Positions 50,514-55,883 of a stretch of 64,000 nucleotides of DNA are shown piece by piece. Numbering within the stretch: position 1 is the first letter of the stretch; every line of letters begins with the position of its first letter. Location of the stretch: positions 1-64,000 of the forward strand of contig NZ_QVMV01000042.1 of the NCBI RefSeq assembly GCF_003417465.1, read 5' to 3'. The notes below the pieces were generated by a model. It was not told the origin of the DNA and ran no database searches. It worked only from the letters and a program-made list of their open reading frames with translations. The stretch comes from Wenzhouxiangella sp. 15190. Lineage in GTDB: Bacteria > Pseudomonadota > Gammaproteobacteria > Xanthomonadales > Wenzhouxiangellaceae. The position numbers and the translations under genes were made by a program.

Positions 50514-50640
50514 ACGCTGTCTCCCCGGCCCAGCCACCCCCCGAGCGCTCCCTCGGCAGCAGACAGCCGGCGGGCCCGTGCGCTATCATGCCGGGTCGCT
50601 GCCACGGCGGCATTCCGGACCAAACGCAGGGACTGACATC

Positions 50641-52233
50641 GTGAGCAATTACGACAACTCGGCGGCCGCGACCGCCCGGCGAAACTGGTTTACCCGCTTT
50701 CTGGACGTCGTCGAGTGGCTCGGCAATCTCCTGCCTCACCCGGTCACCCTGTTCGCCATCCTCGCGACCGCCATGGTCTTCCTGTCGGGCTTTTTCGGCT
50801 GGATCGGGCTGAGCGTCGAAGATCCCCGGCCCAGCGCGGGCGCCGGCGCCACCATCGAGGCCGTCAGCCTGCTCAACCCCGAGGGCCTGCGACGAATCCT
50901 GGGCGGCCTGGTCGACAACTTCGTCAACTTCGCCCCGCTCGGTGTGGTGCTGGTCGCCATGCTCGGTGTCGGCGTGGCCGAGAAGTCGGGTCTGCTGTCG
51001 GCGATGGTGCGCGGCATCGTTCTGTCGGCACCGAAGCACGTGGTCACCGTGGCGGTCGTCTTCGCCGGCGTGCTATCGAACACCGCCTCGGAAATGGGCT
51101 ATGTCGTGCTGGTTCCGCTTGGCGGCGCCATCTTCCTGGCCCTGGGCCGGCATCCCCTGGCCGGCATGGCCGCGGCTTTCGCCGGGGTATCGGGCGGCTA
51201 CAGCGCCAACCTCCTGCTCGGCACCATCGACCCGTTGCTGGCCGGTATCACCGAGGAAGCCGCCCAGCTCATTGATCCGGGCTACACCGTGTACGCCACC
51301 GCCAGTTGGTATTTCATGATCGTGTCGACCTTCATGATCACCATCATCGGCTCACTGGTGACCACCTTCATCGTCGAGCCCAAGCTGGGCGAGTACGACG
51401 ACTCCAATGCCGATCCCTCGGTACTCGACGACAGCCAGATGAAGCCGCTTACCGGCTCGGAGAAAAAGGGCCTGGGCACCGCCCTGTTCACCACCGTCGC
51501 CTTGCTGGGATTGATCGCCCTGCTGGTCGTACCGGAAAACGGCATTCTGCGCGACCCGGACGCCGGCGGAGGCTTCCTCGAATCCTCCGGCCCGTTCTTC
51601 GATTCGATCGTCGCCTGGATCTTCATCTTCTTCCTGGTTGTCGGCTTCGCCTACGGCAAGGTCGTGGGCACGATGAGGAACGACCGTGATGTCATCGACG
51701 GCATGTCTTCGGCCATCTCGACCCTCGGCCTCTACGTCGTGCTGGTGTTCTTTGCCGCCCAGTTCGTGGCCTTCTTCGGCTGGTCCAACCTCGGTCTGAT
51801 CACGGCCGTGACCGGCGCGGAGTTCCTGCAGAACATCGGCCTGACCGGACCGCTGGTGTTCGTGCTGTTCATCATCATGTGCGGCATCGTCAACCTGTCT
51901 CTGGGTTCGGCCTCGGCGCAGTGGGCGGTCACCGCCCCGATTTTCGTGCCCATGCTGATGTTTATCGGTTACTCACCAGAGGTCATCCAGACCGCCTACC
52001 GCATCGGCGATTCGACCACCAACATCATCACCCCGATGATGAGCTACTTCGGGCTGATCCTGGCCTGGGCGACACGCTACGACAAGAAGTTCGGCATCGG
52101 CACCCTGATCGCCACCATGCTGCCCTACTCGATCTTCTACTTCATAGGCTGGAGCCTGCTGTTCCTGCTTTGGGTATTCGGTCTCGATCTGCCGGTCGGC
52201 CCGGGTTCGCCCACCTACTACGAAGCGCCATGA
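50641..52233 (+). CDS. AbgT-family transporter
   Basis: A 530-aa inner-membrane transporter of the AbgT family (p-aminobenzoyl-glutamate uptake in E. coli, drug or folate-intermediate efflux in others). The N-terminal WLGNLLPHPVTLFAILA, the NFAPLGVVLVAMLGVGVAEKSG segment, and the C-terminal VTAPIFVPMLMFIGYSPEV and GDSTTNIITPMMSYFGLIL are family marks. I chose the GTG at 50641 (SNYDNSAAATARRNW). An upstream ATG at 50578 adds an unrelated Arg-rich stretch. It overlaps the DUF971 gene by 4 nt. Confidence 0.9.
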   Translation: MSNYDNSAAATARRNWFTRFLDVVEWLGNLLPHPVTLFAILATAMVFLSGFFGWIGLSVEDPRPSAGAGATIEAVSLLNPEGLRRILGGLVDNFVNFAPLGVVLVAMLGVGVAEKSGLLSAMVRGIVLSAPKHVVTVAVVFAGVLSNTASEMGYVVLVPLGGAIFLALGRHPLAGMAAAFAGVSGGYSANLLLGTIDPLLAGITEEAAQLIDPGYTVYATASWYFMIVSTFMITIIGSLVTTFIVEPKLGEYDDSNADPSVLDDSQMKPLTGSEKKGLGTALFTTVALLGLIALLVVPENGILRDPDAGGGFLESSGPFFDSIVAWIFIFFLVVGFAYGKVVGTMRNDRDVIDGMSSAISTLGLYVVLVFFAAQFVAFFGWSNLGLITAVTGAEFLQNIGLTGPLVFVLFIIMCGIVNLSLGSASAQWAVTAPIFVPMLMFIGYSPEVIQTAYRIGDSTTNIITPMMSYFGLILAWATRYDKKFGIGTLIATMLPYSIFYFIGWSLLFLLWVFGLDLPVGPGSPTYYEAP

Positions 52234-52636: not shown

Positions 52637-53362
52637 ATGACCGACTTTGGCTACCGCGACGTATCACCCGAGGAGAAGACGCAGTTGGTCGATCGCGTCT
52701 TCTCTTCGGTGGCGAAGCGCTACGACTTGATGAACGACCTGATGAGCCTGGGCATTCACCGGCTCTGGAAGCGGCACTTCGTGGCGACCTGCGGCATTCG
52801 AGCGGGCCACAAACTGCTCGACCTGGCCGGGGGAACCGGCGACATTGCGAAACTCGCACGCGAGCGCGGTGCCGATGTGATCGTTGCCGACATCAATCGA
52901 GAAATGCTCGCCACCGGCCGCTCGCGGATGGACGCCAAGGGCCTGGTCGGGGGCCTGGAGTGGTTGCAGGTCAATGCCGAGGCCCTGCCTTTCGCCGCCA
53001 ACCATTTCGACCACCTCACCATCGCCTTCGGCCTGCGCAACGTAACCTGGCGCGACACGGCCCTGGCCGAAATGTACCGGGTACTCAGGCCCGGCGGCCG
53101 GGTGCATATCCTGGAATTCTCGAAAGTCGGCCTGCCGGCACTGGCGAAGGTCTACGACACATGGTCGTTCCAGGTGCTGCCGCGTCTGGGGGCACAGATT
53201 GCCGGCGATGCCGAAAGCTACCAGTACCTGGCCGAGTCGATCCGCCGCTTTCCCGATCAGCCCACCCTGGCCGAGCAGATGCGCGAGGCCGGCTTCGAGC
53301 GGGTGGATTGGTCGAACCTTTCCGGCGGCATCTGTGCGATTCACCGTGGCGCCAAAGTCTAA
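52637..53362 (+). CDS. ubiE: Ubiquinone/menaquinone biosynthesis C-methyltransferase UbiE
   Basis: A 241-aa SAM-dependent methyltransferase acting on demethylated quinol rings. Seen: FGYRDVSPEEKTQLVDRVFSSVAKRYDLMNDLMS, the SAM loop LLDLAGGTGDIAKLA, and the family signatures FGLRNVTWRD and LRPGGRVHILEFSK. The stop codon abuts the inverted-repeat element that separates it from ubiJ. Confidence 0.96.
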   Translation: MTDFGYRDVSPEEKTQLVDRVFSSVAKRYDLMNDLMSLGIHRLWKRHFVATCGIRAGHKLLDLAGGTGDIAKLARERGADVIVADINREMLATGRSRMDAKGLVGGLEWLQVNAEALPFAANHFDHLTIAFGLRNVTWRDTALAEMYRVLRPGGRVHILEFSKVGLPALAKVYDTWSFQVLPRLGAQIAGDAESYQYLAESIRRFPDQPTLAEQMREAGFERVDWSNLSGGICAIHRGAKV

Positions 53363-53627
53363 ACTAATGAGATCCTTGATCAGCAGGCCTTCAGAGTTTC
53401 GGATGCGTTCGCCTGGAAGGCGTGTCGGCGAAGGCATAGTGGCGCTACGTCGAGCCGACACAACGCAGCAGGCGGACGCATCCGAATCTCCCGGAGGGCT
53501 TGCACTGAAGCGTCCGTGGACTGCGTTCTCGACACTTGATGTAGAGTGGCTACACCGGCGCGTCGACGCCTTGGCACGAACGCTTCAGAGCAAGCTGAAT
53601 GCCTGCTGATCAAGGATCTCATTAGTT
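53362..53627. repeat. 266-bp element with 27-bp perfect terminal inverted repeats and two internal hairpins (R7)
   Basis: The ends 53362-53388 and 53601-53627 are exactly complementary over 27 bp, and pairing resumes for 5 bp after one mismatch. Inside lie hairpin I (53398-53414 with 53470-53486, 16 of 17 pairs) and hairpin II (53498-53513 with 53580-53595, 15 of 16), each with further inner pairing (GTGTCGGC/GCCGACAC; TGTAG-AGTGG-CTACA). The whole folds as a three-way junction. It begins at the ubiE stop and ends 4 nt before ubiJ. No protein-coding signal. Confidence 0.88.
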
Positions 53628-53631
53628 AGGG

Positions 53632-54243
53632 ATGAGCCGCTACCTCACACCGCTGCCGAGCATGCTGGCCGCTGGCATCGAGCAGGCGATCGCACGCGCC
53701 GCCGCACTCGACGACAAGGCCCCGCAGCGACTCGCCCCGCTAAAGGACAAGGTCGTTCGGCTGAAACTCAAGGGCCTGGGGATCGACCTGTATTTCCGCG
53801 GCCACGAAGACACCCTGGGCGTAAGCGCCGAGGACGACACACCGCCCGATACCAGCATCAGCGGCACGCCGGTGGCCCTGCTGGCCATGGCCGTGCCGGA
53901 CTGGCGCGCCCCCGGCAGCGGGGTACGGATCGAGGGCGAGGCCGGCACCGGCCAGGCCTTCGAAAAGCTGCTCAAGCAGCTCGACCCCGACTGGGAGTCG
54001 ATGTTCGTCGAACGCTTCGGCCCGGTCGTGGGCCACCAGCTCTGGCGCATGCTCACCGACGCGCGCGCCGGCGCCCGGCATGTCTCGAACACCGCGGCCG
54101 ATCAGGCCGCGCGCTTCCTGCGCGAGGAATCGGGCCTGCTCGTCATGCGCGAGGAGGTCGACGATTTCGTGCACCAAGTCGACGAATTGCGGGAAGCGGT
54201 CGATCGGCTCGAAGCGCGCCTGCGCCGCCGGAGCCGCACATGA
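53632..54243 (+). CDS. ubiJ: Ubiquinone biosynthesis accessory factor UbiJ
   Basis: A 203-aa SCP2-domain lipid-binding protein of the Ubi complex that presents hydrophobic ubiquinone intermediates. The SCP2-like region spans about residues 20-120 (VVRLKLKGLGIDLYFRG, DTSISGTPVALLAMA). The C-terminus is a coiled coil (FVHQVDELREAVDRLEARLRRR). It lies between ubiE and ubiB, as in E. coli. The stop overlaps ubiB by 4 nt. The ribosome site is poor (TTAGGG directly before the ATG), a result of the neighbouring element. Confidence 0.9.
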   Translation: MSRYLTPLPSMLAAGIEQAIARAAALDDKAPQRLAPLKDKVVRLKLKGLGIDLYFRGHEDTLGVSAEDDTPPDTSISGTPVALLAMAVPDWRAPGSGVRIEGEAGTGQAFEKLLKQLDPDWESMFVERFGPVVGHQLWRMLTDARAGARHVSNTAADQAARFLREESGLLVMREEVDDFVHQVDELREAVDRLEARLRRRSRT

Positions 54244-55883
54244 TCTCGCGCATGCTTCGAATGACCAGCATCGCGCTGACCCTGGCGCGCTATCGGCTCG
54301 ACGAGTTGCTGGTGGCCCTGCCGCCGCTCCGGTTCGCCCGCGCGGTCCGCCTGCTGCCGTGGGGCCGGCGCGGCGTGCGCGACCTGCCACGGGGCAGGCG
54401 CTTGCGGAGGGCGCTGCAGGAACTCGGACCGATTTATGTCAAGTTCGGCCAGATCCTTTCGACGCGGCGTGACCTGTTGCCCCACGATATCGCCGAGGAA
54501 CTGGCCGGGCTGCAGGACGACGTGCCGCCCTTCCCCGCCGAGATGGCCCGTGCCGCGGTCGCGTCCGAACTGGGCAAGCCGGTCGACGAACTGTTCGCCG
54601 AATTCGAGAACGAAGCGCTGGCATCGGCCTCCATCGCCCAGGTTCACGGCGCCCGGCTCGAAGGCGGCGAGCGGGTGGTTGTCAAGATCGTGCGACCCGG
54701 CATCGAACGCCAGATCCGCAAGGATCTCGAACTGCTGCATGCTCTGGCGCGGTTGACGCGTCGCTACCATCCCGAGGGCGATCGCATTCGCCCGGACGAT
54801 ATCGTGAGCGAATTCGAGCGCGTCATCGAACGCGAACTCGACATGCAGGCCGAGGCGGCCAACGCCTCCCTGCTTCGGCACAATTTCGAGCACTCGGCCG
54901 ACCTCTACATCCCGGCCATCCACTGGCGCTACACGGCTTCGAGTGTACTGGTCATGGAACGCGTCGATGGCGTCCCGGTCAAGGACATCGCTGAACTGGA
55001 ACGCCGCGGCGTCGACCTCGAACGGCTGGCCCAGCGCGGCATCCGGGTGTTCTACACCCAGGCCTTCCGCGACAATCTGTTCCATGCCGACATGCATCCG
55101 GGCAACATCCTCATCGACACCACCGATCCGGCCGATCCCACCTATATCGCGCTGGATTTCGGTATCGTCGAGAGCCTGCCCGAGGCCGATCTGCATTATC
55201 TCGGCGAGAACTTCATGGCCCTGTTCAACCGCGACTACCGGCGCGTTGCCGAGTTGCACGTCGAGGCCGGCTGGCTGCCATCCGATACCCGCATCGACGA
55301 ACTCGAGGCGGCGATACGCACGGTCGGCGAACCCAACTTCACCCGACCACTCGAGGAAGTGTCCTTCGCCGAGCTGATCATCGCCCTGTTCTCGGTCGCG
55401 CGGCGTTTCAAGCTCACCCTGCAGCCCCAACTGGTGATGTTTCAGAAAACCCTGCTCAATATCGAGGGCATGGCCCGCTCGCTGTTTCCAAGACTCAACA
55501 TGTGGGATATCGCCAAACCCGAGCTGGAAGCGATCCTCGCCGAGCGCTACGGCCTGCCGCGCACCGCGCGCCGCCTCGCACGCGAGCTTCCGAACTGGCT
55601 GTCCCGCTCTCCCGAGATTCCCGGACTGGTCCACGATTACCTCGAGCGGGCCGGTTCCGGCCAGTTGCGCACCCGCATCGATTCGGAAGACCTCGAAAAG
55701 CTGGCCAGCGAACTGGGCCGCCAGAACCGACGTCTTCCGGGAGCCGTTTTCGCCGCCGGCCTGCTCGTCTCCGGCGCCGTGCTGGCCGGGTACCAGGTCG
55801 CCCCGCTGTGGGAAGGCTATTCCCTCCCGGCGGGCCTGGCTATTCTCGGCGGTCTTGTCCTCGGCTGGCGCACCTGGCGCTAG
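54240..55883 (+). CDS. ubiB: Ubiquinone biosynthesis kinase-like protein UbiB
   Basis: A 547-aa ABC1/ADCK atypical kinase-like ATPase needed for ubiquinone synthesis. Seen: the KxGQ motif in YVKFGQILSTRRDLLP, the Ala-rich loop EALASASIAQVHGA, catalytic HADMHPGNILID and metal-site LDFGIVESLP. Two C-terminal membrane segments (AVFAAGLLVSGAVLAG and LPAGLAILGGLVLG) are typical. It overlaps the convergent creatininase-family gene by 4 nt. Confidence 0.95.
   Translation: MISRMLRMTSIALTLARYRLDELLVALPPLRFARAVRLLPWGRRGVRDLPRGRRLRRALQELGPIYVKFGQILSTRRDLLPHDIAEELAGLQDDVPPFPAEMARAAVASELGKPVDELFAEFENEALASASIAQVHGARLEGGERVVVKIVRPGIERQIRKDLELLHALARLTRRYHPEGDRIRPDDIVSEFERVIERELDMQAEAANASLLRHNFEHSADLYIPAIHWRYTASSVLVMERVDGVPVKDIAELERRGVDLERLAQRGIRVFYTQAFRDNLFHADMHPGNILIDTTDPADPTYIALDFGIVESLPEADLHYLGENFMALFNRDYRRVAELHVEAGWLPSDTRIDELEAAIRTVGEPNFTRPLEEVSFAELIIALFSVARRFKLTLQPQLVMFQKTLLNIEGMARSLFPRLNMWDIAKPELEAILAERYGLPRTARRLARELPNWLSRSPEIPGLVHDYLERAGSGQLRTRIDSEDLEKLASELGRQNRRLPGAVFAAGLLVSGAVLAGYQVAPLWEGYSLPAGLAILGGLVLGWRTWR

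Follow-up and report, generated by a model that had tools for sequence, protein, structure and literature searches.

The window analysed here (64 000 nucleotides, positions 1 to 64 000 of contig NZ_QVMV01000042.1 from Wenzhouxiangella sp. 15190) contains, between the genes ubiE and ubiJ, a 266-nt stretch made of terminal inverted repeats that enclose two long hairpins. The questions raised by this locus are what the element is, how it reached this place in an operon, and at which level its fold acts. It is probably a copy of a non-autonomous, MITE-like family that inserts at TA, is moved in trans and has a core conserved in its fold.

The element between ubiE and ubiJ

The features of the locus are collected in Table 1. 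The SCP2-domain gene downstream of the element is taken to be ubiJ. The ubiE stop codon (TAA) is at 53360-53362 and the ubiJ ATG at 53632. The element thus shares its first base with the end of that stop codon and leaves 4 nt in front of ubiJ, as proposed in the initial annotation, which had been made from the sequence. The 27-bp perfect terminal inverted repeats and the two long hairpins that it had described were also recovered: the arms (33 nt each) are 97% complementary and perfectly so over the outermost 27 bp, and inner inverted repeats at 53394-53415/53469-53490 and 53498-53518/53575-53595 form the hairpins. Folding of the strand from 53352 to 53640 bore this structure out: its energy was -166 kcal/mol, whereas 200 shuffled sequences averaged -102 (z -12; 0/200 as good). 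Among open reading frames of at least 80 aa, a single one is contained in the element (minus strand, 80 aa), and the others that overlap it enter from the ubiE side. At 266 nt, the element is too short for a transposase and encodes none of its own.

Table 1. Features of the ubiE-ubiJ locus, in coordinates of the window.
Feature	Position	Strand	Remarks
ubiE, upstream neighbour	52637..53362	+	Pfam Ubie_methyltran
Whole element	53362..53627	.	266 nt; core ACTA...TAGT at 53363-53626, 264 nt
Left arm, outer stem	53362..53394	+	inverted-repeat pairing
Hairpin unit I, HP2-type, forward on +	53393..53490	+	102.8 bits with model R2, which was built in part from this copy
Unit I internal-loop motif AAGGCG, conserved	53417..53422	+
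Unit I internal-loop motif AACGCAG, conserved	53462..53468	+
Linker joining both hairpins, CCC..GGG type	53491..53498	.
Hairpin unit II, HP1-type, forward on -	53499..53595	-	model R2, 61.6 bits
Right arm, outer stem	53595..53627	-	inverted-repeat pairing
ubiJ, downstream neighbour	53632..54243	+	Pfam SCP2 domain
ubiB-like ABC1 gene, next in operon	54240..55883	+	Pfam ABC1

Thirty ubiE-ubiJ loci were read, including that of the window's own genome. Both genes, a short gap and no element were found in 28 of the 29 others; the remaining locus (L120) is cut by a contig end shortly upstream of ubiJ. The insertion looks private to the window's genome among these 30 loci, and no natural empty site for this copy is known from them. 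Two registers fit the native junction, which may have been GTC-TAG-GG-ATG or GTC-TAA-GGG-ATG. The copy would have inserted among the few bases around the ubiE stop, between ubiE and ubiJ, and would have broken no gene. Upstream of ubiE lies a gene for an AbgT-family transporter (50578-52233; Pfam ABG_transport, E 7.5e-200).

Dispersed copies, mobility and target site

The own genome was searched by BLAST with the element and five dispersed relatives were obtained, matching in full or nearly so (L002, L003, L004) or in part (L005, L006). With L004 as query, L006 was recognized as a full copy of greater length, whereas L005 has 162 nt and a single hairpin. A second type of arm is present in the same genome, in a 267-nt copy at C19 (L269). 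The hairpin covariance model gave 16 matches there, a figure that does not equal 16 hairpins as the model may score one hairpin on both strands. In six own-genome copies, the 32-nt arm matched its own partner at 28-31 positions and the arms of other copies at 14-24, except in the related pair L004/L006 (27-28 positions). Positions altered on both arms and paired in both copies numbered two for L004/L006 and 7-15 for the other pairs of copies.

Outside the family, 22 copies of 264-265 nt were found in the single-contig genome G187. Identity to one reference copy was 258-265 of 265 positions (at least 97%) for 21 of them and 216 for the other. The flanking bases were T|A in 19 of these 22 copies and in 26 of 34 copies from Wenzhouxiangellaceae; the copy of the window is among the eight without T|A and is one of two flanked A|T. 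In genome G022, a copy (L095) is nested in the arm of another copy, and an uninterrupted arm (L115) is present in the same genome. The nested junction fits insertion at TA, either with duplication of TA or with ACTA..TAGT placed between T and A. In fragmented genomes, several contigs end inside copies.

In the own genome and in the sets of 34 copies and 32 elements described below, the copies are short, multiple, dispersed and bounded by terminal inverted repeats, as expected of a MITE. That the element could be a MITE, one of three options in the initial annotation, was further strengthened by the mostly T|A flanks, by the amplification in G187 and by the IS5-type arms of some relatives. The family is mobile and was recently amplified in G187.

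Plan of the element and conservation of its fold

Read in one orientation, a full copy consists of a 32-nt arm, a first hairpin (HP1, about 98 nt), a short CCC..GGG linker, a second hairpin (HP2, about 98 nt) and another 32-nt arm. HP2 on the opposite strand is the same unit as HP1, so that from either end the element begins with an arm followed by a forward hairpin. In the unit, 22-23 bp of lower stem and 7-8 bp of upper stem are separated by an internal loop (CAAGGC / AACGC), and the apical part is TAG..CTA in most Wenzhouxiangellaceae units. Folds and arm spacing identified one-hairpin forms (L005, L060, L062, L085, L179, L182) and forms that carry a further hairpin, about 63 nt long (L006, L066, L067, L069, L081, L179, L181, L182).

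The 34 Wenzhouxiangellaceae copies are those parsed from the loci fetched at that stage, partial copies being left out. Their 32-bp outer stem is Watson-Crick paired in 1019 of 1088 cells, with 26 distinct left arms and two to four pair types at many positions. Both sides had changed in 24 of the 36 pairs of HP2 (93.3% of cells paired) and in 19 of the 34 pairs of HP1 (96.7%); for each hairpin, 0/500 shuffles were as high. Every pair of the upper stem covaried (8/8 and 7/7) and the apical pairs hardly did (0/5 and 1/5). Pairing fell to 29-47% when the partner was shifted by 1-3 columns; like the shuffles, this control is not proof alone, as the sequences aligned are related and the structures were read from them. 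The strong covariation in both hairpins supports the view that the fold is under selection. The initial annotation had also envisaged a sequence with no second copy anywhere and no covariation, and the relatives in the own genome and this covariation dispose of that case.

Distribution

Searches by sequence detect the family piecemeal. BLAST with one copy gave matches in 23 of 61 genomes, all of one bacterial family. A pattern with 23 fixed bases was found in 31 stretches of an 84 980-species collection, under titles of Wenzhouxiangella or Wenzhouxiangellaceae except for three stretches from the MAG T3Sed10_151R1, titled Gammaproteobacteria. No match was obtained in E. coli genomes with one distant member as query, and viral contigs gave one exact arm word and no element match.

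A covariance model of the single hairpin was also used (model R2; R1, an automatic structure of 23 pairs, was set aside). It matched 35 of 43 family genomes, the own genome included, and 61 of 274 genomes of the class under 44 family labels, a count that includes the own genome and family and takes weak matches as scored. Thirty-two elements were parsed from 14 genomes, eight of them outside the family. They are 255-271 nt long and their arms are of many unrelated sequences. In the outer stem, Watson-Crick pairs occupy 968 of 1024 cells, the register having been shifted by up to 3 nt on each side to the best-paired position.

Twenty more loci from 20 other genomes were, like one earlier set of loci, picked among the strong matches listed, not randomly. 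Arms of 28-35 paired bases, with spans of 264-338, were present in 16 of them, and two inverted model matches in 14 (12 of the 16 with arms); the armed loci with a single model match were L305, L312, L313 and L315. No arm pair was counted in four loci: L308 has two units at a contig end, L309 a decayed single unit and L310 a single unit, and in L311 (G279:C251:1-390) two units lie within a 97-nt inverted repeat that takes in the flanking sequence. This repeat stands at the start of its contig and may be a fold-back made in assembly. The outer stem and the linker are absent from the model and yet present in unrelated families, so the model does not match just any hairpin. Plan and length thus recur in the gammaproteobacterial families examined, although most bases have been replaced, pair by pair. 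Two Rfam searches gave no family at gathering score, each with three sub-threshold matches (five of miRNA type and one SAM_alpha match outside the element).

DNA or RNA as the folded molecule

A compensating G-T pair in one hairpin had been read in the initial annotation as a sign of selection for RNA structure. Selection for structure was sustained by the covariation, but the argument for RNA is weaker than it seems, as the strands favoured by the two hairpins are opposite. When each unit was counted on its own strand, wobble pairs outnumbered A-C mismatches by 102 to 14 cells (46 vs 7 in HP1, 56 vs 7 in HP2); in distinct position-types the figures were 10 vs 6 in HP1 and 17 vs 6 in HP2, so the excess comes partly from a few fixed positions. 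In the lower stem class-wide, 92 wobble and 17 A-C cells were counted in an alignment that leans to the model. The outer stem gave 22 wobble and 11 A-C cells. Since the hairpins lie on opposite strands and wobble is favoured on each one's own strand, a transcript of the whole element shows the favoured form in one hairpin only.

According to the RNA reading, the hairpin would be carried in read-through transcripts of the host and be bound, cut by an enzyme of RNase III type, or protect or terminate the mRNA, the inverted units giving a forward hairpin from either strand. This would agree with the strong covariation and the wobble excess. The copies at ubiE-ubiJ and on the PA83 plasmid (see below) are between genes of the same strand and are probably transcribed, and Correia/NEMIS transcripts are proposed RNase III substrates (PMC2229807). 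The reading is nevertheless unlikely. Units that favour opposite strands are not accounted for by one RNA spanning the element, Rfam gave no family, and the copies occupy scattered, unrelated sites and were amplified recently in G187. One transcript cannot show both units in the favoured form, and two ends that each act as a folded strand can, which favours a role at the DNA level. We therefore favour a fold-back of the DNA that would join the ends for a trans-acting transposase.

Origin of the ends

A full relative was found on plasmid pAcX50f of Azotobacter chroococcum, and the word of its arm led to insertion sequences (IS). The IS on an Aeromonas caviae plasmid (862 bp, own ends 19/19 paired) encodes a transposase assigned to the IS5 family by NCBIfam NF033580, its protein alone having been run against the profile libraries. 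A Paracoccus IS with these ends is 842 bp long (17/18 paired). The IS of Azotobacter plasmid pAcX50d has ends that are 19/20 paired and identical to the element arm over 22 nt, and an IS4 transposase gene also lies inside its repeats. Relatives of the element with the same arms are present on a Pseudomonas aeruginosa PA83 plasmid (269 bp, 5 nt past a stop and between two same-strand genes) and on a Halomonas PA16-9 plasmid (267 bp); their model scores are weak, with one match at 26.6 bits and two at 44-47 bits, respectively. Azotobacter-type arms also bound a 317-bp element of Catenovulum with one unit match. The arms of the Azotobacter, Pseudomonas and Halomonas plasmid relatives were shown to be IS5-family terminal repeats. 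The hairpin model had no match in the loci holding IS5 elements (L272, L274, L276), so the twin-hairpin core is not a piece of those IS elements.

No transposase with ends like the arms of the window's copy was found, either in arm-word searches or with an IS5_3-type query, which had 0 matches in the own genome (G000). The terminal repeat of the five IS5 copies of G187, TAGGGCGTGTTAACACTAAT, differs from the arms of the 22 elements there, and the IS5 fragments of G276 and G261 have no terminal repeat like the element arms. The arm words used as queries led to no autonomous element. The first 23 arm-word matches were all inside BLAST matches and a further 12 were in or beside BLAST matches, elements or half-remains (L177, L178, L183); the arm word of G187 occurred as 22 pairs plus one decayed lone arm, and four lone arms of G027 resemble remains. 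This inspection left out most matches of G196 and G293 and the lone arms of G149 and G272. Plasmid searches with other elements and arm groups returned no match, one weak cyanobacterial match or the Azotobacter lead, and no IS; the Halomonas locus L273, matched by an arm word, has no arm pair and no annotation.

At L279, on the A. chroococcum HR1 plasmid, the left arm is unpaired and an IS630-family transposase gene begins 42 nt away; from this locus, a helper other than IS5 is possible. At L290 (= L233) of G187, an IS5-family element abuts a twin-hairpin copy at the TA of a terminal CTAAG.

The whole could be an ordinary IS-derived MITE, with a core that is passive filler from one ancestor and arm differences that reflect the parent IS. 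In its favour, one group of arms is identical to terminal repeats of the IS5 family, and MITEPsy1 provides a working IS5-linked MITE (PMC3189936). We consider this explanation improbable, however, as many families have the core fold in combination with other arms, the three IS5 loci lack the model hairpin, and the pairing of a filler would be expected to decay.

Long inverted repeats are homogenized by template switching, in which one arm is copied from the other. Template switching of DNA could by itself keep arms and stems complementary in an otherwise ordinary MITE, with no selection on structure, and it would account for arms that match within a copy and differ greatly between copies. It is very unlikely to be the explanation. 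A mismatch at position 25 of the outer arm (A.A or T.T) is retained in 21 of 34 copies, and U.G pairs stand at fixed places of the lower stem (19/25 in HP2, 17 and 14 of 23 in HP1). The internal-loop bases are conserved across the class in 66 units, a set that includes one antisense row (L004 1614-1711 +) and lacks L179; the label L226 stands on this antisense row and the label L179 on the row of L226. In 16 of the 22 copies of G187, six 264-nt copies being left out, five single changes at paired sites gave four broken pairs, one wobble kept and none compensated.

A REP or BIME element moved by a Y1 (REP-associated) transposase was rejected as extremely improbable: Y1_Tnp genes are present in 19 of 43 family genomes, but the hairpin motif was in 0/30 Y1 loci scanned (of 35 matches; short partial BLAST matches in L190 and L200), no Y1 gene flanked by the element was seen there, and the plan and target of REP differ from a twin-hairpin plan and a TA target.

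Comparison with known repeat families

The BOX elements of pneumococcus resemble the element in being modular, with outer parts that pair and a variable number of inner hairpins. They differ from it in host, sequence and size and are set apart by description.

MITEPsy1 of Pseudomonas syringae is likewise short and non-autonomous, with terminal repeats near those of the IS5 family and a target with a central TA (CTAG/YTAA). As described in PMC3189936, it differs by its 100 nt, its 18-nt repeats and its 4-nt duplication; the present elements have about 266 nt, arms of about 32 nt, a twin-hairpin core and many unrelated arms. ERIC, Correia/NEMIS and RUP are small elements with TA ends and long stem-loops that are moved, or thought to be moved, in trans, and the terminal repeats of RUP are common to an IS630 (PMC2229807). 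By the descriptions in the same paper, they are shorter than 200 bp, form their stem-loop by pairing of the ends and are defined by sequence, whereas the present family is recognized mainly by fold. The CIR repeats of Caulobacter and Brucella consist of two long inverted repeats that make two arms connected by a linker, a similar plan, but they carry GANTC motifs and have no terminal inverted repeats (PMC2229807).

TRIP1 of E. coli is likewise GC-rich and intergenic, with a length of 266 bp, a 'double Y' fold and a short variant from which about 125 bp are missing (PMC10888264). Membership was rejected despite the similar size and short form, as TRIP1a, b and c of K-12 were not matched by the hairpin model and their folds showed no outer stem of 32 bp. 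The R6 and R200 repeats of Pseudomonas fluorescens are intergenic, and several families there have inverted repeats and are proposed MITEs; with 50-352 bp and other inverted repeats, they are set apart by their description in PMC2718517.

No account of this repeat family was found in the open-licence PMC literature. As far as the open literature shows, what is new is a class-wide family defined by its fold, near-fixed length, few loop bases and interchangeable ends; the kind itself is that of a MITE.

Proposed mode of transposition

A transposase encoded elsewhere would recognize the arms and insert the element at TA, probably with duplication of TA. The hairpins would fold as a single strand or a cruciform and hold both ends together. 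Such a fold would help transposition or tolerance by the host, and would be retained for that reason.

A broader proposal is offered tentatively. The core may be an IS parasite indifferent to the transposase that moves it, in which a fold of fixed length (a stem of about 32 bp and two 98-nt hairpins) joins the ends. In the course of evolution it would have acquired terminal repeats from various transposases that insert at TA, and would in this way have reached much of the Gammaproteobacteria, with its shape and a few loop bases constant. MITEs are usually recognized by sequence, whereas here fold, length and a few loop bases persist while the ends change. If the fold is needed for movement, the family would offer a testable case of a DNA transposon in which movement requires secondary structure and the core changes helper transposases. 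The covariance model is ready for the annotation of unexplained intergenic repeats.

Other repeats were noticed beside some copies. The truncated copy L072 (G027:C1:892000-894200) continues into a simple repeat of AAAACC / GGAAACC type. The word CTAGCCCGCATTATTCATGAAT is in or beside element remains in L251 and L253 of G027, and in L251 it lies within a longer inverted repeat. The word TATTAACCCGGCA recurs (L084:937-1020, L087, L314): in G018 it is part of a perfect hairpin of 39 bp, and in G132 it forms the arm of a copy of 317 nt. Several G187 copies are flanked by AACCCGGC words, which together with TATTAACCCGGCA possibly represent a terminal repeat in common or a different mobile hairpin.
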